Positions 2,510 to 34,651 of a DNA stretch of 38,050 bases are shown piece after piece. The translations under genes were made by a program, and so were the position numbers. Location of the stretch: positions 1-38,050 of IMG/VR virus record IMGVR_UViG_3300021957_000116; one strand, 5' to 3'. The DNA comes from a virus. The notes beneath the pieces are model-generated. The model did not search any database. It saw nothing but the letters and a program-made list of their open reading frames with translations, and had not been told where the DNA came from. The stretch's first letter is position 1. Every line of letters begins with the position of its first letter.

Positions 2510-3538
2510 TTAAAGTTTTATAATAAAATTAACCACAACAGTTGGAAATATCATGTTGGGGGTAATGGCTGAGTGAGCTGCCACAGCTGTCACAGCTGTA
2601 GAACCACTAGCATCTTTAGCACCTGTTGAAAAGGTTGCTGTTGTTACTGAGTGCGCACTAATTGACGTAGATTCTGTTACTTTTGCAGAACTAGCAGACA
2701 TTGCGTGGGTATGAGTTCCTAAAGTGCTATTATTTGCGCCTTTTCCAAGAATTAACTTGTCTCGTAAATCAGGAACGTTAAAGGTATTATTACCGTTTCC
2801 TGTTCCAAAAGAGGTACTCACTACTCCAAATAAATTAGCGTTAACTCCTGTGCGTGAAAGAGCACTTCCATCACATAACACATAACCGGAGGGCGCTGAT
2901 GACCCCCCGTATGCAGAAATAACTCCTGTGGGTACTAACGCAGTTTCTATAAAATTGTCCAATTCATGTACTGATATTGAGTCTGCGGTTATTTTTACAT
3001 TACTAACATTTCTATCAGTAATTTTTGCAGTAGTAACCGCCCCAGCAGCAAACATAGCAGAGGTAACTGATCCGTTTGTAGGTGGTATGCCTACATCTAT
3101 AAAGTTTGAAGCGCTATTAGCTCCTTTTACCATAAGGCGCACATTTGAGGCTGACGAATCAAGACTTACCATTAGTTCTCCGACTTGATAAGTTCCAATG
3201 TTAGCAGTAGCTCCTACAATGTTATTCTCATATCTTGCCCCAATACCTACTCTTGTAAAAGTACCTCCAGGTCCTTCTCCGCCTTTTACGTCTGCAGTAG
3301 GTACATTTACATATAAAGCTTTGGTGCTTGAATTATAGTGCAAAATACCCGATGTCCTAGAGTCGGTAAAGGCTACAGTACTTCCTCCGTCATCTTGAAA
3401 ATTTGCCGCAACAGGTCTTGCGTCAGAATAAAAATTTTGTGCTAAAGATTGTAAACTACCATTTATTTGTCCACGAAACGCAGACAAAGCAGTAGATGCA
3501 GATGTTAGCACAAAAGTATTCGAAGTTCCTATAGCCAT
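2510..3538 (-). CDS. Tail fibre protein with C-terminal Phage_Collar domain
   Basis: This 342-aa protein has a unique N-terminal ~200 residues: an alpha-helical start, then beta-rich repeats such as AAGAVTTAKI and SNVKITADSISVHELDN. A collar-type domain follows at about residues 204-262, with the hallmark strings PSGYVLCDGSALSR, GTGNGNNTFNVPDLRDK and LGKGANNS. The last ~75 residues are rich in Ser, Thr and Ala and end in TVVVNFIIKL. The collar family (T4 gp12-like receptor-binding tips) is found in distal fibres. From the collar domain onwards it closely matches the protein at 34088-34651, while the N-terminal parts differ. It starts 13 nt after gpJ with an AAGGAG about 9 nt before the ATG. 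It is probably a tip or side fibre that works with gpJ in adsorption. Confidence 0.88.
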   Translation of the reverse strand: MAIGTSNTFVLTSASTALSAFRGQINGSLQSLAQNFYSDARPVAANFQDDGGSTVAFTDSRTSGILHYNSSTKALYVNVPTADVKGGEGPGGTFTRVGIGARYENNIVGATANIGTYQVGELMVSLDSSASNVRLMVKGANSASNFIDVGIPPTNGSVTSAMFAAGAVTTAKITDRNVSNVKITADSISVHELDNFIETALVPTGVISAYGGSSAPSGYVLCDGSALSRTGVNANLFGVVSTSFGTGNGNNTFNVPDLRDKLILGKGANNSTLGTHTHAMSASSAKVTESTSISAHSVTTATFSTGAKDASGSTAVTAVAAHSAITPNMIFPTVVVNFIIKL

Positions 3539-9500: not shown

Positions 9501-10265
9501 AGTAACTGTTTCAGCACCAAAAACATCCATAGCTCCTTGAGTTATGGTTCCTGTAGTTGTTAAAGTTTTAAATACTTCGTTATTTTCTGTGCCATCTCCT
9601 TCAATATTAATTAAATCATCAGACACCCCTTCATTAATTTCTATATCTTGAGGGCCGTTAGGATTAATTCTATAAATAGGACCTTCACCCAATGCAACAG
9701 TTAGAAATAAAATATCAGTAGAAAATAAAGTATTAGGGTCTTCGCGAGCAGCAGGGGCTGCACTACCGCCTTTTCCACCACCCCCTTTATTAGATAGTCT
9801 GATTCCTTGACAAATATAGTTGTGATAAGTATTAACAGTTAAGTTGTATACTGTCTCATCTAGATAATCTTCGCTTTCAATTGATAAAATCTTACTAGAA
9901 TCATTATCTTCTAAAGTTAGATATTCTCCAACTGCCCAATCTTTAGCTTCTTTATATTCATTGTTTTCATCATATAAATAATGGTTATCTGTAACTCTCA
10001 ATACACCTTTTTCGTGGGTAATGGTTAAAATATAACCCACAGTTTCAGAAGGAATATGCTCCCAAGTCTTTTCTACAAAAGATACCCAACGTTTATCATT
10101 CTCATCAAAACAATATACTTTATCATTAAGTTTTATGTCTTCAATAGGAATTTCACCTCTAGTAGTAGATACTAAAGAACCTGCAGGAAAACAGCCGCCT
10201 TTGTTTCCTGAAATAAAAGGAGTCTGCCCTCCCTGTACGTTAACATATTTTTTATAAACACTCAT
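3552..10265 (-). CDS. J: gpJ-like host specificity / central tail fibre protein with N-terminal Hint domain
   Basis: At 2237 residues this is the largest gene, in the lambda J position after two gpI genes (ATGA overlap). The J family signature begins with a Gly-rich linker ([20 protein letters not shown], residues 161-180), then [10 protein letters not shown] and YEGVWDGT...[15 protein letters not shown] near 663-693, followed by fibronectin-like segments (for example [16 protein letters not shown]). A complete Hint (mini-intein-like) domain occupies residues 25-159, just before the Gly-rich linker. A further insertion of GSGY..APT repeats lies at about 484-653. In lambda, J forms the tail-tip hub and central fibre and binds the receptor; the same role is inferred here. 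The C-terminal ~600 residues have no recognised domain and are the likely receptor-binding part. It is about twice the length of lambda J (1132 aa). Confidence 0.93.
8307..8816 (-). other. GSGY-repeat insertion in gpJ (residues ~484-653)
   Basis: Two copies of an [14 protein letters not shown] / [14 protein letters not shown] module with [13 protein letters not shown] between them are followed by a ~90-residue module ([21 protein letters not shown]). The insertion separates QTNIDG from [12 protein letters not shown], which are adjacent in ordinary J proteins. The stretch looks less AT-rich than its surroundings by eye. Confidence 0.65.
9789..10193 (-). other. Hint / mini-intein-like domain inside gpJ (residues 25-159)
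   Basis: The domain starts with block [21 protein letters not shown], at Cys25. Block B follows as [11 protein letters not shown], with the T-x-x-H pair Thr92/His95, then [10 protein letters not shown]. Block F/G follows as [21 protein letters not shown], ending at Asn159. The domain is about 135 residues with no room for a homing endonuclease. The expected penultimate His is Ser158, and the residue after Asn159 is Lys160 rather than Cys, Ser or Thr. That fits a bacterial-intein-like (BIL) or cleavage-type Hint better than a classical intein. The flanks are similar (GNKGG before, SNKGGGG after), so excision would leave an intact Gly-rich linker. Confidence 0.85.
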
Positions 10266-10972
10266 GCTGCAAATTGCTCCGAAACTTGTATTTGGTCATT
10301 TTTTCCATGATTAAATGATTTAATATACCCCGATATTAAATGTCCACCAATTCTAGTCATTCCATATCTCATTCCTACAGGAACTCCTGAATTAATTGTG
10401 TTAGTTAGTCCAGTGAATAAATTGTTTTCTGTCCTTGAACCATCGTCTGTAAAAGTCCTATTATTGGAGTTACTTTTAGGTGAGGACTGGGCCAGCGCCA
10501 TTATTCCTTGTAGTGCAAGAGACGCGCCAAACATAGCTATTTGTGAAAAACTAACACTCATACCTGCTACCGTAAAAGCAGTTGTTCCCATTCCCATTGT
10601 AGGCCCCATAGCTCCTACTATGGCAGGAGCCATATAGAACGCCACAGCAATAAGGGCGATACCTATAACTACCATTGCAATTCCACCACCTTTTCCTCCG
10701 CCACCTACGATAGAGGGAACTAAATAATAAACTTCATCGTTTAGCTTTTTATTAGCTTCTACATCCGCTAAACTCACTCTTTTTTTATTTTTATTTAAGA
10801 TAAAAAAATCAGTAGTTAATTTGTTTTTGTTTTGTTTAACAAACTCTGCAAATTTTGGAAAAGAATTTACTAAGAAACTCATTAAAGAATGGTAGTCTTT
10901 AACTTCTACTTTTATTTCTTTTCTATCTTTAAAATACTTTGTTGCATTTTGGTGTATAACTAAAGTAATCAT
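10262..10972 (-). CDS. I: gpI-like tail tip assembly protein, second copy
   Basis: This 236-aa protein has the lambda gpI layout. An N-terminal ubiquitin-like beta domain ([14 protein letters not shown]..., residues 1-90, with FPKFAEFV) is followed by a Gly-rich hinge (GGGGKGGG). A long hydrophobic Gly/Ala segment spans about 95-165, and the conserved tail reads [10 protein letters not shown]...VPVGMRYG...[15 protein letters not shown]. It is clearly paralogous to the protein directly upstream (10969-11640), and the two genes overlap by ATGA. Another ATGA overlap joins it to gpJ. In lambda, gpI is needed for tail-tip assembly around J and is absent from the finished tail. This copy has a longer hydrophobic block than its partner. 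Confidence 0.87.
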
Positions 10973-11640
10973 GTTGCAAATTGCCCCGATACTTTAATCA
11001 AAGCTCCTTTTCCGTGATTAGTAGTTTTTATATATCCACTTACTAATTGTCCCGCAGATCGTACTTGTCCATAAATTATAGGCACGTTGTTATTACTTGA
11101 GGTCGTGTTTGTTAAACCATTAAACAAATTATTATCTATTCGTTCTTGAACATCAGGTGTTTGTTTTTCTGGAGGTTTGGGTACTTTTGTAAATAATCCC
11201 ATAACCCCGCTTAATACCATGTTTAGTCCAGTAGAAAACGCTAGTTTTCCTAGCGTAGTTCCCATAAAGGAGGTTGCGGCTAAACCTGGAAAAGCAAAAG
11301 GAGCCGCAATTAACGCAATCCCAATAGCTATTTGTAAAAAAGATCCTTTTTTACCTCCTGCTCCACCAAGAATAGGGCTAATGTATATCTCTTCGTGATT
11401 AGCCCTAAGTCTATTGTATTGATAAATTTCACTTTTTATAATTTTTCTATCTTTATCTAACAAACAAAGATTTTCAGATATGTTTTCTGTTTGAATTTTT
11501 CTAATATACTCTCCAAATTTTGGAAAAAGATTACACACAGCAGAAATTAAAGATTCAAAATCATCACACACAACAGTATGAGTTTTGATTCCAGTTGTAT
11601 ATTTTAATAAAGAATTGTGAAAAGTTAGTGTTATTTTCAT
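10969..11640 (-). CDS. I: gpI-like tail tip assembly protein, first copy
   Basis: This 223-aa protein has the gpI domain order. An N-terminal ubiquitin-like domain (MKITLTFHNSLLKYTTG..., with FPKFGEYIRK) is followed by a GGAGGKKGS hinge at about 94-102. A hydrophobic helix-rich segment follows (QIAIGIALIAAPFAFPG). The conserved C-terminal region reads NNLFNGLTNTTSS...VPIIYGQVRSAGQLVSGYIKTTNHG. It overlaps the JAMM gene by 4 nt and the second gpI copy by 4 nt, so translation is probably coupled. The order M-L-K-I-J matches lambda. Having two gpI genes is unusual; the copies have diverged strongly in sequence but keep the same layout. Confidence 0.87.
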   Translation of the reverse strand: MKITLTFHNSLLKYTTGIKTHTVVCDDFESLISAVCNLFPKFGEYIRKIQTENISENLCLLDKDRKIIKSEIYQYNRLRANHEEIYISPILGGAGGKKGSFLQIAIGIALIAAPFAFPGLAATSFMGTTLGKLAFSTGLNMVLSGVMGLFTKVPKPPEKQTPDVQERIDNNLFNGLTNTTSSNNNVPIIYGQVRSAGQLVSGYIKTTNHGKGALIKVSGQFAT

Positions 11641-12005
11641 ATTAAATGTTTTTCAACAAATTCATCGAATTTAAGTGCGTCTACGTTTTTATCTAACCAG
11701 TAGATATAAAATTTATTATTAAAACCGACAACAAACTTAAACTCTTCAAAAACTGCTCCTTTTTTATCTTCTTCGCTAGGAAGAGGATTTTCTTCCCCTG
11801 GATGTGAGTGAAATATCCCCCAACAATTATCTTCATATTCAAAAAGACTTTCGGGATCAACAACAAAACTATCTTTAGGAAAAGGACTTATATTTTTACA
11901 CGCTACATACTTAAAATCTTTTGTTATTAGCCCACAACATTCTCTAGGATATTCTGCTTGTGCATGCTTTCCCATGTCACTAATTAGTGTTGAAAATAAA
12001 GTCAT
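11637..12005 (-). CDS. JAMM/MPN (Mov34-type) metalloprotease-like tail protein, gpK N-domain equivalent
   Basis: This 122-residue protein carries a full JAMM zinc motif. Glu22 lies in ECCGLITK, then H66-S-H68-P with Ser77 and Asp80 (HSHP-x7-S-x2-D). These residues bind zinc and catalyse isopeptide or peptide cleavage in the JAB/MPN family. In lambda gpK this domain is fused to an NlpC/P60 domain; here it stands alone, after two separate NlpC/P60 genes. It overlaps the upstream NlpC gene by 26 nt and the downstream gpI gene by 4 nt. The role is inferred as tail-tip maturation or peptidoglycan-related processing during entry. The substrate is unknown. Confidence 0.9.
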   Translation of the reverse strand: MTLFSTLISDMGKHAQAEYPRECCGLITKDFKYVACKNISPFPKDSFVVDPESLFEYEDNCWGIFHSHPGEENPLPSEEDKKGAVFEEFKFVVGFNNKFYIYWLDKNVDALKFDEFVEKHLI

Positions 12006-12426
12006 CTGACATTCCTATCCATTTAAACATTCCTACTGTATAATTTTTATAATATCTGCCATAAGGAGCAACCCAACTTTTATGATCAATCATAGTTTGT
12101 AACATTTTATTTTTTTCTACCAACAAAGCACAATGGTTAGTAACGTTAGTTGACCCAAGAGACATTGTTATAATATTAAATTCCTCTAAATCTTCGGTTT
12201 TTTTCCATCCATATGCTTCAGTGCTTGCAGCATCCATAGATCTTTCGTGTGTTTTAGTATACCAATCTTCGTCCACAATATTACACCAGTATGTAGTATC
12301 GTAGGGTATATCAATGCCTAATTGTTCTTTATAAACTAACCTACAAAGATTAAAACAATCAATACCTGTTTCAATATTATTGCCTAAATGTCTATAAGGA
12401 AACCCTTTATATTTATCATACCACAT
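11980..12426 (-). CDS. NlpC/P60-like peptidase in the tail tip, second copy
   Basis: This 148-aa protein has an NlpC/P60-type core. Cys24 lies in GIDCFNLCRLVYKEQLG, the expected nucleophile context. A second conserved position, His98, lies in TNHCALLVEKNKMLQT, and Asp114/His115 are candidates for the third polar residue. Lambda gpK carries this domain and it is thought to act on peptidoglycan peptides during DNA entry. The gene overlaps the preceding NlpC/P60 gene by 11 nt and the JAMM gene by 26 nt. It differs considerably from its neighbour, so this may be an old duplication or two separate acquisitions. No signal peptide is present, as expected for a virion protein. Confidence 0.82.
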   Translation of the reverse strand: MWYDKYKGFPYRHLGNNIETGIDCFNLCRLVYKEQLGIDIPYDTTYWCNIVDEDWYTKTHERSMDAASTEAYGWKKTEDLEEFNIITMSLGSTNVTNHCALLVEKNKMLQTMIDHKSWVAPYGRYYKNYTVGMFKWIGMSDDFIFNTN

Positions 12427-12847
12427 TCTGCGGGTCTTTTCGTCTTAAAATAAAATGTATTTTATCTCTCCACTCTTGATTCAGTGCTGTTATTCTAGAG
12501 CTTGTTTCTTCTTCCACATGTATAAAATTATTATTTACGGTATACATACCAAAATGAATTGGTCTATTCTTTTTTGACTTAAATAATATTACATCATATT
12601 CTTCTATTTTTGTCAAATCAACTTTTATTGCGTTTAAGTTAACCCACTCTTCTATTTTTTTTAAAGTTATTTTAAACTTCCAACGACTACCTTCTGAAGG
12701 TTTTCCTTCTACTAAGTTTAAATGGGTCCACAAACTTTGAAAAACATTACATTTTAACTCTTCTTTATATATTTTTTCAATCAATGTTATACAGTTTATA
12801 TTTTGATAATCATGTTTTATTCCTAAATATTTTGTATAGTTCGTCAT
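12416..12847 (-). CDS. NlpC/P60-like peptidase in the tail tip, first copy
   Basis: This 143-residue protein has a minimal NlpC/P60 fold. YLGIKHDYQNINC leads to Cys19, the likely nucleophile, followed by ITLIEKIYKEEL. His98 lies in RPIHFGMYTVNNNFIH, with His110 as a possible third residue. It begins at a TAATG junction with the gpL gene, which is the lambda K position. Together with the next two genes it provides what lambda makes as one polypeptide (NlpC plus JAMM). One of the two NlpC proteins may be structural and the other catalytic; both keep a Cys/His pair, so the sequence does not say which. Confidence 0.82.
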   Translation of the reverse strand: MTNYTKYLGIKHDYQNINCITLIEKIYKEELKCNVFQSLWTHLNLVEGKPSEGSRWKFKITLKKIEEWVNLNAIKVDLTKIEEYDVILFKSKKNRPIHFGMYTVNNNFIHVEEETSSRITALNQEWRDKIHFILRRKDPQNVV

Positions 12848-24209: not shown

Positions 24210-25466
24210 TTAAAAACCTTTTAAAACATTAAATTGTCTTCCAACTCTTCGTTGGGTTATGTTTCTAATACTTCCTTCAATAGTTTCATTGGGGTTTCTT
24301 GAAGTATCTTGGTGTACTTGATATATAGGATTGTAATAGTATCTAATTAAGCTACCTCTAACCTGAGTTATAACACTTCTAACAAAGCGTCCACTTCTAT
24401 TTGTTAGTATTTCATCGCTCAGAGGAGGTCCTTGTAAGGGTCCTTTAGGCATTCTCGCAAATAATGATCTTTGAACTGCTGCAGTGAGTTGAGAAGAAGA
24501 AATAGTAGCTTGCATCTCCTTCTTTTTTCTTGGGCCTCCCTTGCGTGAACCTTTAATTTTACCTTTTGTCATTGGAATACTAGCGCCTGATGGGTATTCC
24601 ATTATCATATCAAAATCAATACCGGATGCTTGATTGGTTACTTTTCGTCTACCTGGTAAAGTAGCTAGTGCTTTTTCAAACTCTTTTGCTGTCTCAACAG
24701 TTATTGCAGGTCCTGCATCTAATATTGATTTTATTAATTGTCTCTCAAAAGATTCGCTTAATTTTAAAACAATGGCCGCAGGCTTAGTTAATTCTGTAAC
24801 AAAAGGAGGAGAAGTAAATTTGTTTAAAGGAAATGCTATATTTATTACATCTACTGCAGTAACTTTGTTACCCCCACTTTTTTGAACTTTAGAAATCTGT
24901 AAAACTCTTGCTTTACGATAAAACTGCATAAATAAATCGGGGTCATTTTCTTTAATTAAGTTAAAAAATCCACCAGCCCCTCCTAAAGCGGTTCTAGCAG
25001 CTTTTAAGATTCCTTGTTTATCCTCTATGTCTACTCCTGGGTCTGCTGTTTGAGCTGCTCTTTTTATAGAATCTGTTAAAGATAATGAACCTACTTGTTG
25101 TCCTCCTTCAATAGCAAAAGGAGAAACTTGTCCAATAGTAGCACCACCTTTTCCTCCTCGGGTTGCTTTTAGCTCTGTTTCTGTTATTTCTTCTAGCCCA
25201 AGAGCTGCAGCTAAAGGTGCAGATATTTCTTCTGCGTTAATCTCAAAATCTGGAACTAGACGGGCGCTACCACCTCTAACTGTTGCTTTATAAAATCTAC
25301 CTATTGATTGTTCTAAAGCAGTTTGACTAATTTTTCTGGTTGCTTTTCCGCCAAGAAGAGGTTTCCCTCCTTTTTTAACTCCACGTAAAAAATCAGCATA
25401 ATTATCTAGTAACTCTGGTTCTGTAATTCTTACATTAAATGCTGTAATCCCTGCAGGAGGTGCCAT
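24210..25466 (-). CDS. Neck / tail completion protein candidate, unrecognised family
   Basis: I do not recognise this 418-aa protein with certainty. It lies between the gp6-like connector (1-nt overlap, TAATG) and the tail terminator, where lambda gpZ or HK97 gp10-type completion proteins are found. The N-terminal half is mixed alpha/beta with Gly/Lys-rich loops (RGVKKGGKPLLGGKATRK; ATRGGKGGATIG). The middle contains GGKGK-like basic patches (KGKIKGSRKGGPRKKKE, about 303-319) that could contact DNA. The C-terminus (ILTNRSGRFVRSVITQVRGS...YYYNPIYQVHQDTSRNP) is likely the folded structural part and looks the most conserved. No enzyme motif is visible. A head-tail joining role is inferred only from position. 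Confidence 0.7.
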   Translation of the reverse strand: MAPPAGITAFNVRITEPELLDNYADFLRGVKKGGKPLLGGKATRKISQTALEQSIGRFYKATVRGGSARLVPDFEINAEEISAPLAAALGLEEITETELKATRGGKGGATIGQVSPFAIEGGQQVGSLSLTDSIKRAAQTADPGVDIEDKQGILKAARTALGGAGGFFNLIKENDPDLFMQFYRKARVLQISKVQKSGGNKVTAVDVINIAFPLNKFTSPPFVTELTKPAAIVLKLSESFERQLIKSILDAGPAITVETAKEFEKALATLPGRRKVTNQASGIDFDMIMEYPSGASIPMTKGKIKGSRKGGPRKKKEMQATISSSQLTAAVQRSLFARMPKGPLQGPPLSDEILTNRSGRFVRSVITQVRGSLIRYYYNPIYQVHQDTSRNPNETIEGSIRNITQRRVGRQFNVLKGF

Positions 25467-26779
25467 TATTCAATTATCCTATATAAATCTAGAACTCTTT
25501 TAATATGGGGCGGGAAGTTTGCAGCAAGAGCAGGTCTAGTTACCGACTCTCCTGCAAGAGCGAAACCAGAACGGTCTTGCTCCTCTTTGTGTAATAGCTT
25601 TATATAATCTAGTGTCGCTAATTTTAAATCTTGTGGCACATTACCCGACTCATACCCCGCACGATAATTAACACGAATAGCTTGGGGAAAGTTTTGAAAA
25701 GCTTTTGGTCCTTGTAAAGTTAGTTTTTGATAACCTGCACCAGAACCAGTATTACGACTAATTTCTCCTGTGTCCTTTTTAAATACAAATTCTTCTTGAG
25801 AAGCATGGGTATCATTAACATCTACTGCCGCATTAGCACCCTCAAAGTGGAGTAGTAGTTTAGTTTCATCGTCTGTTAAATGTTGATACTCAGGAGTGTC
25901 AAAAGCATCTGTATAGTGTGCTGATTTAGAAATTCGTAGTTCGTCCATATATCCTGTAAAATGGGCAGGAGTAGTATTACCAGATTTTGCAATAAGCAAT
26001 TCGCCACTAAAATTTGGAGCATCAACTGTTTTAGCAATTGTAGCAGTACTACCAATCTGACTTCCATCTCTAAATAATTTAAGAGAAGTTCCGCTTTTAC
26101 TTACTGCAAGATGATGAAAAGTGTTAGCTGTATAGCCACTGGTAGCGGCGTGTGCTACATTCATAACTTCAGTACCAGCATCTACGACTCTAAACTGTAA
26201 CCCTTCTACTGCATTATATCTAAATTGCCAAAAATCGTTAGCATCTTGATATTGTTCCACTAACACTTGTGATGCAGAAAAACTAGAAAATCTAGCTTGT
26301 AAATCAATAGTAAAATCTTCTGTATCAAACCACCAATCATCACCATTAGATGCTGATAGATAATCTCCATTTCCGTCAAAATATACGGAAGATTGTCCAA
26401 ACTTTTTAACTCTTGTTGTAATATGTGTGTCCCCATTTGTTGTTATGGTGTGGTTGTCCGAATCTTGATCCACCAAAAGCCCGTCCGCTGCAGGGGGGTT
26501 TAAACTTTCATACCTTGTTCCATTATATTCAAAAACTGAATGCACATTTGCAAGAGGTAAACGAGAGGCAAAAACTGAACTGTAACCACCATCAAAAGTT
26601 TCTGAGTAGTTATTTGCCAGTACCTCTCGTTCAATATAGTGTTCTACCACACCACAAGCATAATTAATTACATTAGCTAACCTACCATCATGGGTAGTGC
26701 TATTAATACTTAGATAGTCTTTAGTTTCTACTAATGTAACATATGGATATTTACCTAAATTACTTTCTGTGATAGCCAC
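25466..26779 (-). CDS. HK97 gp6-like head-tail connector interrupted by a LamG domain
   Basis: The N-terminal ~90 residues (VTLVETKDYLSINSTTHDGRLANVINYACGVVEHYIERE...) and the C-terminal ~80 residues (AIRVNYRAGYESGNVPQDLKLATLDYIKLLHKEEQDR) together make a normal-sized gp6-type connector: helices plus the V-x-Y-x-AGY...VP..L strand-helix unit. Between them, at about residues 128-315, lies a LamG/concanavalin-like domain. It shows SSVYFDGNGDYLSAS, FTIDLQARF, FHHLAVSKSGTSLKLFRDG, HFTGYMDELRIS and KLLLHFEG. The connector ring sits below the portal in the neck, so the inserted domains would project as a 12-fold collar. It starts 12 nt after the small acidic gene. Confidence 0.82.
   Translation of the reverse strand: MAITESNLGKYPYVTLVETKDYLSINSTTHDGRLANVINYACGVVEHYIEREVLANNYSETFDGGYSSVFASRLPLANVHSVFEYNGTRYESLNPPAADGLLVDQDSDNHTITTNGDTHITTRVKKFGQSSVYFDGNGDYLSASNGDDWWFDTEDFTIDLQARFSSFSASQVLVEQYQDANDFWQFRYNAVEGLQFRVVDAGTEVMNVAHAATSGYTANTFHHLAVSKSGTSLKLFRDGSQIGSTATIAKTVDAPNFSGELLIAKSGNTTPAHFTGYMDELRISKSAHYTDAFDTPEYQHLTDDETKLLLHFEGANAAVDVNDTHASQEEFVFKKDTGEISRNTGSGAGYQKLTLQGPKAFQNFPQAIRVNYRAGYESGNVPQDLKLATLDYIKLLHKEEQDRSGFALAGESVTRPALAANFPPHIKRVLDLYRIIE
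25835..26398 (-). other. LamG-type domain inserted in the connector protein
   Basis: Residues ~128-315 have the Laminin_G_3 pattern: FGQSSVYFDGNGDYL at the start, FHHLAVSKSG in the middle and FTGYMDELRISKSAHYTDAF near the end. The host protein resumes its connector fold afterwards, showing an in-frame insertion rather than a terminal fusion. Confidence 0.75.
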
Positions 26780-27070: not shown

Positions 27071-27093
27071 TTATTTTCTCCTTTTACTAGAAA

Positions 27094-27123
27094 GGGGAGG
27101 CAGATAAGAACACCTACCTCCCC
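27094..27123 (-). terminator. GC-rich hairpin after the major capsid gene
   Basis: On the minus strand GGGGAGGTAG (27123-27114) pairs with CTGCCTCCCC (27103-27094), 10 positions with one G-T pair, around a 10-nt loop. TTTCTAG follows. The stem is strong but the T tract is short, so a leaky terminator (attenuator) or an RNA 3'-end stabiliser for capsid mRNA is more likely than a full stop. Confidence 0.65.
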
Positions 27124-27156
27124 TGGGGTATAACTAAGTATGTTACCTAGTAAGTA

Positions 27157-28557
27157 TTAACCAGCTTCAATTAATGATGCATATGCGAAGTTTGTTGCAT
27201 CAAGAGCAGCGTTACTGTTAGAGCTAAGTGCTTTGAAATCAAAGCGGGTGCTCATGTACATTGCTGTAACCTGCTGGCGTGGTTCATACTCGCTCTCAAT
27301 CTCCATGCCTCGGCGTTCCCCGATGAGGAATCCTGGCTTGTAGACTAGAACACCGAGTTCGTTTCCGGTAGAACCTACATTATCCATGAACTCAGAGATA
27401 ACAATTGGAATACCATAAATGGCACCTACTGCACCTGTGAGATACGTGGCATTTGGTCCGAACTTATCGACAGTGCGGAAGTCAGAGAAGCTAACTAGCT
27501 CGTTGTAGCCTTCAACAGAAGTTACGTAAACTAGGTGATCTCCAAGCTGTAGACCATACTTACCCATCTTCGCACGGGCAGAGGCAATGTCTGAAGCATC
27601 AGCTTTGTCGTTTCCACTACCTGTAGTGGTTCTTAGACCAGAAATATCGTCGGCAAGAGTAACAAGACCTTTAATTACTGACGCATAACCTGTTCCTGCT
27701 GCGATAGCATTGGTTGGTGCTGCTGTAAACCCTGTAAGGGCGCCTGTTCCACGAAGGATTGCCTTGTCGATTGCGCGAGCAACACGGCGTGTAGCTGCAC
27801 GACGAAGGAAGTCCATTAGGGGTAGAACTGTGTCTTCTTCTTCATCCTTGGCAAGGTGAGTTGTTGCCATGAACTTATGAGGTGTGAGTTCTACTGCACT
27901 GATTGTGTTCTGGTTTGAAGTTGGAACGTTTGTTGCGTCTGCAATGCCTGTGGCAAAAGTGCCAGAAGCAAACTGAGCAACATCACCGTCAGTGTCTTCC
28001 TTAGCAACAGGAATTCTGAAAGTCTTTGCATCAACTTGAATTCTGTCGAACATAGGAGCAATAACGAGCTGCTGTTCCATTTCTTCGTATACATTAGATG
28101 AGAAATTTGAAAGGAACTGATCAACAGCTGTGACCGCCTTAATTTTCTGACCCATCTTAGTGTCGAAGGGGTCGCGACGGCCTAGGGCCTGGGAAAGCAT
28201 ATATGCGTTCGCCATTTCCTTCTCGGAGAACTGCTCTCTGCTTGTATGAGAAGTTTCCTGATAGACCATCTTGGACTGTGATAGAGCAGAAATTTGCTCT
28301 TCGTACTTTTTCATTTGAGCCTTAAGTTCAGCAACCTGCTCTGTTTCAACAGGGGTGTACTCTGAACCTTTTTTGTCCTGGGCATCAGCCTCAGTTAGAA
28401 TTGCCTCACCAGTCTTTTCAACAAGCTCGGCAACTCGTGGCTCGGAAACCTGAGCAGGGGCACTCTTTACTTCAACTGCGGGTGCAGCTGGAGCAGGTGT
28501 TTCTGTCTCGGCTTCGGTTTTAACAACGATTGGATCGCCAACGTCTTGTGTCGCCAT
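27157..28557 (-). CDS. Major capsid protein from internal start (nested, in frame)
   Basis: The ATG at 28557 (Met539 of the long frame, MATQDVGDP) has AAGGAG (28572-28567) with 9 nt between GGAG and the ATG. This is as good as any gene start in the window. The product would be 466 aa: an N-terminal Ala/Pro/Glu-rich stretch and coiled coil (about 90-100 residues, comparable to the HK97 delta domain), then the complete HK97 fold. That is a normal capsid precursor length. It would supply the hundreds of copies needed for a shell while the full fusion stays minor, similar in principle to lambda's nested C/Nu3 genes. Whether both are made cannot be decided from the sequence. Confidence 0.65.
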   Translation of the reverse strand: MATQDVGDPIVVKTEAETETPAPAAPAVEVKSAPAQVSEPRVAELVEKTGEAILTEADAQDKKGSEYTPVETEQVAELKAQMKKYEEQISALSQSKMVYQETSHTSREQFSEKEMANAYMLSQALGRRDPFDTKMGQKIKAVTAVDQFLSNFSSNVYEEMEQQLVIAPMFDRIQVDAKTFRIPVAKEDTDGDVAQFASGTFATGIADATNVPTSNQNTISAVELTPHKFMATTHLAKDEEEDTVLPLMDFLRRAATRRVARAIDKAILRGTGALTGFTAAPTNAIAAGTGYASVIKGLVTLADDISGLRTTTGSGNDKADASDIASARAKMGKYGLQLGDHLVYVTSVEGYNELVSFSDFRTVDKFGPNATYLTGAVGAIYGIPIVISEFMDNVGSTGNELGVLVYKPGFLIGERRGMEIESEYEPRQQVTAMYMSTRFDFKALSSNSNAALDATNFAYASLIEAG

Positions 28558-30171
28558 TTTATCATTCTCCTTTGAATTAGTAGTTTTATGACCGTGAAGC
28601 ATTAGAGCTAAATCTTTTTCCTCAACTTCACCTGATTTAATCGCATTCAGCTCTTGAATTTGATTTATCATATGATTCGCAACTTGATAATTTGTATCAG
28701 TCCATTCGTCGAATGGAGTGATTTTTAAATTAATAGTTTTGTTCAATTTTTCTTGATCATCTTCGGTTTTTACCTTAGATTTCACATCGTAAAGCTCTTT
28801 TTCACTCAAAGTAACGAATGATTCGAAGCTTTCTTTGATAGCTACTCTATCTTTGTCAGTAAATTTGACCTCTGGAACAGTTGTTAGTGTAATATCAAAC
28901 TTAGTTCCTAAATCCCAGTTATTAACAACAGATAAAGTTTTTGCATCAACGTTAATAGTATTATCCAATGATTCGCCATTTAAGTCAACTTGTAAAAGTT
29001 GATAAAATGGGTTTTGGGCAGTCGCAAGTTTTGTAACTTTCCACCGCTTATCATCGAATTTAACAAAATTTTCGTGTGTTAAACGTGATGTTTCCGCACT
29101 GAGAAGATTAACAAAAGGAATGGGTTCGTAAGGATCAGCACTAATAGCTTCTTCCTCATCGTCTATTTCCTCTTTCTCCGTTTCGATAATATCTTCTTCA
29201 GAAGCAACTGTAATAGTTACTTCTTCTGATTTTTCTTCAACGGCCTCTTCAACAGAAACATCGGATGACTCGGTAAGATCATCTTCAGTCTTAATTTCTG
29301 AATCTTCACTCATTTCTTCATCTCCTTTTCTGTTTTCCGATTCTGTTAAGAGATTCATAGACCCATTACCCATCGTCTCAGATGGGGACTGCGGTCTTTG
29401 TTCCTCTACACTTTGCTCATTTTGCATTTCACTAGGTTTAACCATAAAAACAAGCTCATGCTTATGAGAAGTAGGCTTTGTAGCCTCTAATAATTTATAA
29501 TATTTGACATCATGGAAGTGTTTTTCTCCATGAGAGGTATAAGTAGTAACTCCGTTACCGTTTTCATCTACTTCAACAGTATGATAATGTCCACCTACGT
29601 ATGCGGTAACTCCTACACTAACATCCGTAGCTTTTTCGATAATTTCGTTTTCATCTTTTTCAAATTGTTTTTTAAAAGTTTCGTAATCTGAGTCAGATTC
29701 GAAGTTTTTTCTAACGCTAAATAAACTCTCTTGATTACAAGGGACAGAAACAACACTAATTTCCATTAGCTCTACATCAGTAATTAACATAGTGTCCGAA
29801 TCTCTGTCATAAGCGCCGTCTTTTACTTTAAATCCTACGCTAAAACTTTTTAATGCTCCATCTTCGATTAAGGTTTGTACTCCATGTAATTTTTCAGCAG
29901 CTTCACTAACAGCAGCCTCTACATAAATACCTTTTTTATCGACGGTAACCTTATCTACACGGCCAATGGGTTTACCGTGGTCATGTTGATATAGTAATAC
30001 GGGGTTTTTTCTATAGTTTTCAACGCCTTTTGCCCAAGCAGTCGCAGGGATAATATCACCCGCTCGATCTTTATCGGCAGTATTGGCATATCCAGCAATT
30101 TTAAGGGGTTTATTGTTTTTTCTTGCGCCTTTTGTTTCTAAAACGCTAGTTAAATATAATGTCTTATTCAT
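27157..30171 (-). CDS. Prohead protease - spacer - HK97-fold major capsid protein, single reading frame
   Basis: There is no stop in 1004 codons. Residues 1-~160 are an HK97-type prohead protease (S78 family): LKIAGYANTADKDRAGDIIP, LLYQHDHGKPIG with candidate catalytic His63/65, LKSFSVGFKV with Ser111, and ELMEISVVSVPCNQ. Residues 188-240 are His-rich (GGHYHTVEVD, HGEKHFHDV, SHKHEL). Residues 288-345 are highly acidic, followed by an unrecognised ~180-aa region. From Met539 comes the capsid protein: a coiled-coil delta-like segment (VAELKAQMKKYEEQISALSQ), then the HK97 fold (QVDAKTFRIPV, RRVARAIDKAIL, GIPIVISEFM, GFLIGERRGMEIE). The protease would remove the N-terminal parts. It begins at a TAATG junction with the portal gene. 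Strong internal ribosome sites precede Met287 and Met539, so free capsid protein is probably made in excess over the fusion. Confidence 0.9.
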   Translation of the reverse strand: MNKTLYLTSVLETKGARKNNKPLKIAGYANTADKDRAGDIIPATAWAKGVENYRKNPVLLYQHDHGKPIGRVDKVTVDKKGIYVEAAVSEAAEKLHGVQTLIEDGALKSFSVGFKVKDGAYDRDSDTMLITDVELMEISVVSVPCNQESLFSVRKNFESDSDYETFKKQFEKDENEIIEKATDVSVGVTAYVGGHYHTVEVDENGNGVTTYTSHGEKHFHDVKYYKLLEATKPTSHKHELVFMVKPSEMQNEQSVEEQRPQSPSETMGNGSMNLLTESENRKGDEEMSEDSEIKTEDDLTESSDVSVEEAVEEKSEEVTITVASEEDIIETEKEEIDDEEEAISADPYEPIPFVNLLSAETSRLTHENFVKFDDKRWKVTKLATAQNPFYQLLQVDLNGESLDNTINVDAKTLSVVNNWDLGTKFDITLTTVPEVKFTDKDRVAIKESFESFVTLSEKELYDVKSKVKTEDDQEKLNKTINLKITPFDEWTDTNYQVANHMINQIQELNAIKSGEVEEKDLALMLHGHKTTNSKENDKMATQDVGDPIVVKTEAETETPAPAAPAVEVKSAPAQVSEPRVAELVEKTGEAILTEADAQDKKGSEYTPVETEQVAELKAQMKKYEEQISALSQSKMVYQETSHTSREQFSEKEMANAYMLSQALGRRDPFDTKMGQKIKAVTAVDQFLSNFSSNVYEEMEQQLVIAPMFDRIQVDAKTFRIPVAKEDTDGDVAQFASGTFATGIADATNVPTSNQNTISAVELTPHKFMATTHLAKDEEEDTVLPLMDFLRRAATRRVARAIDKAILRGTGALTGFTAAPTNAIAAGTGYASVIKGLVTLADDISGLRTTTGSGNDKADASDIASARAKMGKYGLQLGDHLVYVTSVEGYNELVSFSDFRTVDKFGPNATYLTGAVGAIYGIPIVISEFMDNVGSTGNELGVLVYKPGFLIGERRGMEIESEYEPRQQVTAMYMSTRFDFKALSSNSNAALDATNFAYASLIEAG
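29311..29325 (-). promoter_or_regulatory. Internal ribosome binding site at Met287 of the protease-capsid frame
   Basis: AAAAGGAG ends 8 nt before ATG 29313-29311 (MSEDSEIKTED), in frame with the long gene. A product from here would lack the protease and begin with the acidic spacer. It may represent a scaffold-capsid fusion or mark a former gene boundary. Confidence 0.5.
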
Positions 30172-31445
30172 TAATTTTCATCCTCTATTGTAGTAGAGTC
30201 CTCTAGACTTTCTTCTGCGGTAGGTCTACCTCCCTGAGTCGCATCTGTAGCACTTCCTGTAATATTTTGAGGAATTCTAATGCCGTCTGAGTCTCCGTCT
30301 TCAAGTTTTGGAAATCTTAATCCAACTCTAGCCTCGTTCGGTGTAATAATTCCTGTATTAACCAACGTTGAATAGTAAATAGCTTGAGTTCTGTTATCAG
30401 GTTGTAAAGATAGTATAGCAGTTTTATCTGGTCGTATACTAATGTTATTATTAAAGAAGTGAGAAAAAGCACTACAAAATTGTTCTAAAATAGGCAGTAC
30501 TGTGTGGTTATAAAACAAAACTTGATTAGCCTGAATATTAGCATTATTACCACTTTTTAGCATAACATATGGTACTCCAAGAGCCTTTGCCATATCCTGT
30601 TGAATTCGTTCAATTGAATTTTCAAAATCTAATTCATTAAAATTTATCTGAGAAAACTTATCAATTTTTAGTCCACCATCCAAAATTGCAGGAGAACGTG
30701 CTCCGTTAAATAAACTAGTATAACTTTGTCTCCAAGATTCTAGAAGTCTATATTTAATTTTTTGACTTAAAACATTATCTGTAGTAAGAACAAATCCGGG
30801 TACTGCATTATTTTTAAAGAATTGTCTTTGGAAGTTAATCATATAATAATAAAGCTCAAAAAGTCTTTCTAAAGGACGAAGTCTACTATACCCCCTAAAG
30901 ATGCTTTCTTCATTCTCACTCTTAACATGAATTATTTCACTAGGTAAAAACTGAATAGCTTCTGATTTTCTCGATTTTCCATAACCAAATAAATCTGATT
31001 CACTTTGGTTTCTCAAAAGATAATTATAATGAGAAACAAAAGCCCTTTCATCTGGTACAATTTCCATATCATTTGCAGGAATTACGTAAATAGCGCCACC
31101 TTCTTGGTCTTTGTCATAATAGAAAAAGGCGTTACCATCTAGAAAAAAATCTAGAAAAGCACGCCTAAACAATCTAACTCTATCTTCAAATGGATTAGGT
31201 TTATTTTGTAACAGTTTGTGAACTTTTTTAGACGGAGAACCTCCTTCGATTACTAAAGGCACCTCTATTAAAGCATTAATAACTATGTCTACTGAGCGAT
31301 GAACAATTTCAATCTCTCTATAAGCTTTTTCAAAGTCTACAATATTGTCAGGGCTTGAAAAAGGTTCCTGAGAAGCAATAGATGGCTGTACAGGATTTAG
31401 TTTTTCTGAAAGATATTGTCTCCATGATGGAACATCATTTGCCAT
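30171..31445 (-). CDS. Portal protein (HK97/SPP1-type)
   Basis: This 424-aa protein lies directly before the protease-capsid gene, the standard portal position. Recognisable portal elements are YREIEIVHRSVDIVINALIEVP near the start and LLQNKPNPFEDRVRLFRRAFLDFFLDGNAFFYY (wing/stem region, about 98-130). IQFLPSEIIHVKSENEES and YRLLESWRQSY follow, as does the clip/crown part with DMAKALGVPYVMLKSGNNANIQANQVLFYNHTVLPILEQF. The C-terminus is acidic and disordered (LEDSTTIEDEN). The protein forms the dodecameric DNA channel that binds the terminase and the connector. Its stop overlaps the next start by one base; the upstream neighbour, an HNH nuclease, ends 3 nt before it. Confidence 0.93.
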   Translation of the reverse strand: MANDVPSWRQYLSEKLNPVQPSIASQEPFSSPDNIVDFEKAYREIEIVHRSVDIVINALIEVPLVIEGGSPSKKVHKLLQNKPNPFEDRVRLFRRAFLDFFLDGNAFFYYDKDQEGGAIYVIPANDMEIVPDERAFVSHYNYLLRNQSESDLFGYGKSRKSEAIQFLPSEIIHVKSENEESIFRGYSRLRPLERLFELYYYMINFQRQFFKNNAVPGFVLTTDNVLSQKIKYRLLESWRQSYTSLFNGARSPAILDGGLKIDKFSQINFNELDFENSIERIQQDMAKALGVPYVMLKSGNNANIQANQVLFYNHTVLPILEQFCSAFSHFFNNNISIRPDKTAILSLQPDNRTQAIYYSTLVNTGIITPNEARVGLRFPKLEDGDSDGIRIPQNITGSATDATQGGRPTAEESLEDSTTIEDEN

Positions 31446-34087: not shown

Positions 34088-34651
34088 TTATGTTTTAATT
34101 ATAAAATTAACTACGACTGTTGGAAAAGTCATGTTAGGTGTAATAGCTGAGTGAGCAGCTACAGCAGTAACAGCAGAACTTGTTGAAGAGTCTTTCGCTG
34201 ATGTAGCAAAAGTTGCTGTTGTGAGTGAGTGGGCGCTAATTGATGTAGATTCTGAAGGCTTAACAGAGCTTGCTGACATCGCGTGAGTTGTAGTTCCTAG
34301 GGTACTGTTGTTAGCTCCCTTTCCTAGTGCTAATTTATCTCTAAAATCTGGAACGTTAAAAGTTGTATTACCATCTCCCGCTCCGAAACCTGTTGCAATT
34401 GTCGCAAAAAGATGTGCGTATGTTGATCTTGAAACAGCGCTACCGTCACAGATAAGATAGTTAGCGGGAACAGTTGCTCCTCCAAAACCCATGATAGCTC
34501 CAGAAGGAATTACTTCAAAGCCTCCAGCAGTCGATCCATCATGGATACGAATACTTTCGGTATCTGTATCTAAAGAAAGTTCTCCGACAGCTCCTGTAAA
34601 ACTATCATTTTGTGATGTTGTGCCTCTTCTAAATTGTACTTGAGTGGCCAT
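34088..34651 (-). CDS. Short tail fibre protein with Phage_Collar domain
   Basis: This 187-aa protein starts with the QFRRGTT...FTGAVGELSLDTD...IRIHDGST module (residues 5-42), common at the start of phage fibre and collar proteins. The collar domain follows at about 50-107 (ANYLICDGSAVSRSTYAHLFATI, GAGDGNTTFNVPDFRDK). Residues 108-187 match the C-terminus of the protein at 2510-3538 closely (LGKGANNSTLGT, SISAHS, AAHSAITPNM, TVVVNFIIK). The shared part probably forms the receptor-binding tip. It starts 17 nt after the large fibre gene at 34669 and ends just before the XhlA-like gene. Confidence 0.88.
   Translation of the reverse strand: MATQVQFRRGTTSQNDSFTGAVGELSLDTDTESIRIHDGSTAGGFEVIPSGAIMGFGGATVPANYLICDGSAVSRSTYAHLFATIATGFGAGDGNTTFNVPDFRDKLALGKGANNSTLGTTTHAMSASSVKPSESTSISAHSLTTATFATSAKDSSTSSAVTAVAAHSAITPNMTFPTVVVNFIIKT

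Follow-up and report, generated by a model that had tools for sequence, protein, structure and literature searches.

How the right small number of maturation proteases is loaded into each procapsid of a tailed phage is only partly understood. In lambda, an in-frame internal start in the protease gene C yields an abundant assembly protein, Nu3; this nested product is a scaffold and not a capsid protein, and the lambda capsid gene is separate. In HK97, the capsid protein carries an N-terminal scaffold (delta) domain that is removed by the phage protease gp4, which is encoded by a separate gene and is present at about 60 copies per prohead (PMC12749128). The T5 capsid protein pb8 sheds about its first 160 residues (PMC11313276). 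Protease and capsid are also found fused: an apparent “major capsid and protease fusion protein” was described in Arthrobacter phage Circum, as a fusion but not with a nested start (PMC5513430), and a “tripartite capsid gene” of Salmonella phage Gifsy-2 appears in the title of Effantin et al. 2010, cited in PMC3121763. Here we describe a fused head gene in a 38,050-nucleotide (nt) stretch of viral DNA, hereafter the window (IMG/VR record IMGVR_UViG_3300021957_000116, positions 1 to 38,050), in which a prohead protease and a T5-type capsid precursor share one open frame and the capsid part has a strong translation start of its own.

The fused gene occupies 27157..30171 on the minus strand, as do all of its parts given below. 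An initial annotation, made from the letters of the window, had placed it correctly without stating the strand, and translation confirms the 1004 codons without a stop that it reported. Its placement of a protease at one end and an HK97-fold capsid at the other is borne out by Pfam: amino acids (aa) 19-153 (29713..30117) match Peptidase_S78, the prohead protease family (expectation value E 1.1e-19; 71.6 bits against a cut-off of 21), and aa 689-985 match Phage_capsid (E 1e-17). The protease residues H63, S111 and E137 (window numbering) are invariant in a 28-sequence alignment (A3). The region between the two had been called an acidic spacer. An acidic linker is indeed present (aa 241-344, 29140..29451), predicted to be disordered (model predicted local distance difference test, pLDDT, <50) and different in length among relatives, but it is preceded by a His-rich segment recognized in alignment (about aa 185-240, HYH..H..HFH..HKH; 29452..29619) and followed by a folded middle domain (aa 345-538, 28558..29139), which AlphaFold2 models as a small beta barrel plus five helices (pLDDT 81, predicted template modelling score 0.76). 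The capsid precursor begins with a predicted helical delta (scaffolding) domain (aa 539-678, 28138..28557), which aligns with the T5 pb8 delta region and is helical in the model, and ends with the predicted mature capsid protein of HK97 fold (aa 679-1004, 27160..28137), delimited by alignment with T5 pb8. AlphaFold modelled the full length poorly (pLDDT 48), and from that model only the disorder of the linker and the approximate secondary structure were taken.

The same fusion was sought in related phage contigs, as the initial annotation had proposed. Five scans of IMG/VR gave about 300 loci, many of them overlapping, and 274 of these public loci hold protease and capsid in one open frame. 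They represent 148 distinct proteins, which form 56 clusters at 90% identity and 17 at 70%; the clusters are related by descent, and per-cluster counts given below are not independent trials. Loci holding only part of the fused gene are truncated by a contig end. Separate adjacent protease and capsid genes of the kind seen in Demerecviridae were found in no reliable close relative among the roughly 300 loci, nor was a stop at the junctions; all reliable relatives have one frame. Ten long contigs, up to 173 kb, each contain a single protease match and a single capsid match, both in the fused gene, and no second protease or capsid gene was found in them, although these records may be incomplete. 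No relatives were found in prokaryote genomes scanned with two patterns. A family B polymerase, considered in connection with an archaeal host, was not found in the ten long contigs, two of which have a family A polymerase. The protease-capsid fusion is the property of a large, uncultured T5-like phage family. In genomes of this family, annotation can go astray, as capsid genes are hidden inside long “protease” genes.

Two internal in-frame ATGs, at codons 287 and 539, had been reported to follow a full AGGAG by 8-9 nt; each follows AAGGAG, with spacers of 8 and 9 nt, respectively, and the predicted products of 1004, 718 and 466 residues are arithmetically correct. Both had been called strong starts. 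The description holds for codon 539 (28555..28557), whose Shine-Dalgarno (SD) sequence overlaps Lys-Glu codons (28567..28572) and which would give a 466-aa capsid precursor. If an SD counts as strong at a duplex energy of about -8.5 kcal/mol or below, an ATG with a strong SD lies at the capsid boundary in 56/56 clusters, where synonymous shuffling predicts about 3.6. The protease and mature-capsid bodies contain 725 other in-frame ATGs, and only one of them is as strong. The capsid-start Met is present in all 143 aligned relatives and is followed by Ala in 142 of them, and one relative (L077) keeps the SD as GAGGAG though the encoded residues differ. Furthermore, codon usage differs between the two halves of the gene. 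The best change point, pooled over 28 representatives, is -5 codons from the capsid start; single-gene change points scatter by tens of codons, and the change exceeds the largest of 20 shuffles in 27/28 single genes, in a few narrowly. These patterns indicate that the internal capsid start is real and is constrained at the DNA level. The start of the full-length fusion (30169..30171) overlaps the stop of the upstream portal gene as TAATG and is preceded by a weaker SD, AGAGGA; across relatives the fusion's own SD is generally weaker, at about -6 kcal/mol versus about -8.7 kcal/mol at the capsid start. The gene architecture, a conserved fusion with a nested start, is well supported by these comparisons.

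The second strong start, at codon 287 (29311..29313; SD at 29322..29327), is real but not fixed in position. This ATG, from which a 718-aa linker-middle-capsid product is predicted, is shared with its SD by the nearest clade only; other clades have strong starts at other, nonhomologous sites between protease and middle domain, and in several there is none. A strong ATG is found in this zone in 40/56 clusters versus 7.8 expected, and the zone lacks one in the other 16. The start in the codon-287 zone probably gives a dispensable extra product.

Among cultured phages, the closest relatives found are of the T5 type, with approximately 31-34% identity in both the S78 protease and the capsid. In T5 (protease T5.150, 210 aa; pb8 precursor T5.149, 458 aa) and in Serratia phage Kamaji (protease 199 aa; capsid precursor 469 aa) the two proteins are encoded by neighbouring separate genes, 15-17 nt apart. 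The Kamaji precursor aligns to aa 539-1004 over nearly its full length, and against a 464-position profile made for the 466-aa form the T5 capsid chains 8zvi and 8ho3 align at positions 17-446 (E 4e-32), the N-terminal delta region included; thus, the codon-539 start is the counterpart of the point where a stand-alone capsid gene begins. The window gene shares with T5 and other Demerecviridae the gene order terminase-portal-protease-capsid, a delta-domain precursor of nearly the same length and the conserved K|A context of cleavage. Unlike it, those phages have two genes with a stop between them, have neither the middle domain nor the His-rich segment, and carry an extra gene between portal and protease. 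Because the two genes of these distant relatives adjoin where codon 539 lies in the window gene, the fusion looks derived; most likely, the stop disappeared in the fused family, and the His-rich segment, the linker and the middle domain were added. The mature T5 chain begins after K159 (LK|AVN), and K159|A160 aligns with K678|A679 of the window protein. The Lys before the predicted mature N-terminus is present in 143/143 relatives, and cleavage is predicted at this T5-type site.

The reading that we favor, with a probability of roughly two in three, is a nested fused head gene in which a fusion made in small amounts assembles together with plentiful capsid precursor, and cleavage by the protease then sets the protease itself free. 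The weaker first ATG would give a small amount of the 1004-aa protease-middle-capsid fusion, and the strong ATG at codon 539 would give, from the same message, the bulk of the 466-aa precursor, comprising the delta domain and the HK97 fold. That little fusion and much precursor arise from one message is strongly suggested by the sequence. The third start, at codon 287 here, probably adds a middle-domain-capsid form in most clades. By analogy with T5 and HK97 biology, the fusion would enter the procapsid via its own capsid part, so that the start sites would determine the proportion of protease enclosed in the shell. Once assembly is complete, the protease would cut capsid subunits at K678|A679; this cleavage would release the delta domains along with the middle domain and the protease itself, and the capsid part of the fusion would stay in the shell wall as an ordinary mature subunit. 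We infer the protein ratios and the role of the middle domain. Since the internal start should yield capsid protein in large excess, the layout of the gene may set the number of proteases per shell. In this widespread family, then, the answer to the loading problem appears to be encoded in the gene, by a covalent fusion and a conserved, stronger internal start, and a single start codon makes it testable. The nested protease-capsid interpretation of the initial annotation stands in part, at the level of sequence, in view of the conserved fusion and the DNA-level constraint on the capsid start, with corrections to codon 287, to the spacer and to its premise about known phages, discussed below.

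Several points weigh against this interpretation. The stability of the full-length fusion and its entry into the procapsid are presumed from sequence. No consistent repeated cleavage motif was found in the relatives between protease and middle domain. The SD energies use the usual bacterial 16S 3' end, which may not be the anti-SD of the host, and per-cluster counts overstate the evidence because the relatives are not independent. The lack of a strong start around codon 287 in 16 of the 56 clusters likewise counts against it.

If the capsid does have its own start inside the gene and the fusion is no more than tolerated read-through, the useful product would be the protease with the middle domain, and the capsid tail would have no role in targeting. 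T5-type cousins do work with a free protease. A tolerated tail should nevertheless be lost through stops or frameshifts in some lineages, which is seen in 0/148 distinct proteins. The single apparent split, in locus L265, was rejected as a genuine one: it differs from an intact contig of 99% identity by a 74-nt deletion, and the capsid frame itself is broken, pointing to a probable assembly error. Moreover, linker length differs widely among relatives, every difference being a multiple of three, and the distance from middle domain to capsid takes about 20 different values among aligned relatives, in frame every time. The frame kept at so many distances suggests that it matters for translation to run on unbroken into the capsid, which favors a function of the fusion over tolerated read-through, and we consider the latter unlikely.

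It is also conceivable that the full-length polyprotein supplies all of the capsid, 1:1 with the protease, and that the internal starts are unused. As far as the title of Effantin et al. 2010 and the domain layout tell, Gifsy-2 offers a precedent in its one-gene protease-scaffold-capsid arrangement, but in that gene, too, a strong internal start follows the protease domain. The strong capsid-start SD in every cluster against one in 725 control ATGs, the near-universal Met-Ala and the switch of codon usage at the capsid start all argue that the start is used, and make such a polyprotein improbable. Still less probable is that the extra capsid comes from an internal promoter or messenger RNA end and not from initiation of translation within the long message. 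A sigma-70-like match (10/12 positions) does lie at 28988-28960 on the minus strand; 26 promoter-like matches were found versus 17 expected in shuffles, however, so single matches carry little weight, and a promoter would add to the conserved start codon rather than replace it. The initial annotation had named, as a way for its proposal to fail, a sequencing error that masks a stop or frameshift. That such an error, or one of assembly, makes separate genes look like one can practically be dismissed, as the same open frame recurs in independent contigs from many samples and in 148 distinct intact relatives.

The middle domain is conserved, uncharacterised and linked to the assembly of the head. 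It has no confident match in Pfam, PHROGs or PDB folds, and no tblastn match in isolate phages. Its best match in BFVD is the prohead protease of haloarchaeal virus HSTV-2 (Foldseek E 7e-3, probability 1.00, TM score 0.42); the helical part weakly resembles the C-terminal part of that protease, with an hhalign E of 0.01 and a probability of 4%. The extra Kamaji gene between portal and protease was considered as a counterpart and rejected, as it shows no similarity. Four relatives (L062, L063, L064 and L068; alignment A1) keep only the beta-barrel part of the domain, with the helical part gone and the fusion frame intact. The His-rich segment is absent from one clade (L071-L080). In many relatives it is followed, in the otherwise variable linker, by a short RPxSPSE-like motif (window about 29371-29400, minus strand), which could be a cleavage or docking site.

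The premise of the initial annotation, that HK97-type phages usually keep protease and capsid in separate genes, omits the fusions of Gifsy-2 and of the Circum type. HK97 itself resembles the window gene in the scaffold domain at the capsid N-terminus and differs in its separate protease gene. The lambda-like feature of the window gene is a conserved in-frame internal start with its own SD. In Gifsy-2, for which the capsid gene alone of the record was analysed, the domain layout places a ClpP-type protease, a scaffold-like region and the capsid in one gene, with a strong-SD internal ATG at codon 221, right after the protease domain. This is alike in arrangement; it is unlike in the protease type, in the capsid family (Phage_capsid_4), in being lambdoid, and in having no strong-SD ATG directly at the capsid domain. 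Relatives covering most of the Circum fusion protein are present in 243 phage records, including Gordonia, Streptomyces and Curtobacterium phages and Lactococcus phage 1706. As in the window, an S78 protease is fused to a Phage_capsid-family protein, both Pfam matches being weak in the Circum type, and most of 11 sampled fusions have a strong-SD in-frame ATG (or GTG/TTG) between protease and capsid, a count that has no shuffle baseline. Cultured phages with such strong in-frame internal starts are represented by L314 (3037-5013), L315 (5266-7428), L316, L320 and L324. The sampled members differ from the window gene in their length (650-810 aa), in having no known counterpart of the middle domain and in less uniform start positions. 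No description of nesting in Circum-type or Gifsy-2 fusions was found in the literature outside subscription journals, a scope that does not extend to the Gifsy-2 paper itself. A protease-capsid fusion is accordingly not unprecedented; what is new is the T5-type lineage, the extra conserved domain and the fixed strong nested capsid start. A wider scheme, toward which we are more doubtful than inclined, is that separate fusing lineages each kept or gained a strong internal start, that two or three start sites fix the number of covalent protease-bearing subunits per procapsid, and that the third form of the T5-type lineage may be a size or maturation factor.

The portal gene lies directly upstream of the fusion (30171..31445, minus strand; Phage_portal E 1.5e-50). 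Directly after the capsid stop codon there is a terminator-like hairpin (27093..27124, minus strand) with a 14-bp stem (region -32 kcal/mol, z -3.8). The remaining window is a siphovirus head and tail module encoding terminase, portal, tail terminator, major tail protein, tape measure and a J-like tail protein. The gene at 25466-26779 (minus strand), a short way downstream of the capsid fusion, is a second unusual head-gene fusion, of a LamG/ConA lectin-like domain (aa 135-287) to a C-terminal head-completion/adaptor domain (aa 367-434). Among the tail genes, two pairs on the minus strand look like tandem duplications: 10262-10972 with 10969-11640, both phrog_32, and 11980-12426 with 12416-12847, both phrog_329/2552. 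The genes at 2510-3538 and 34088-34651 (minus strand), at opposite ends of the window, match the same tail-collar/fibre families.

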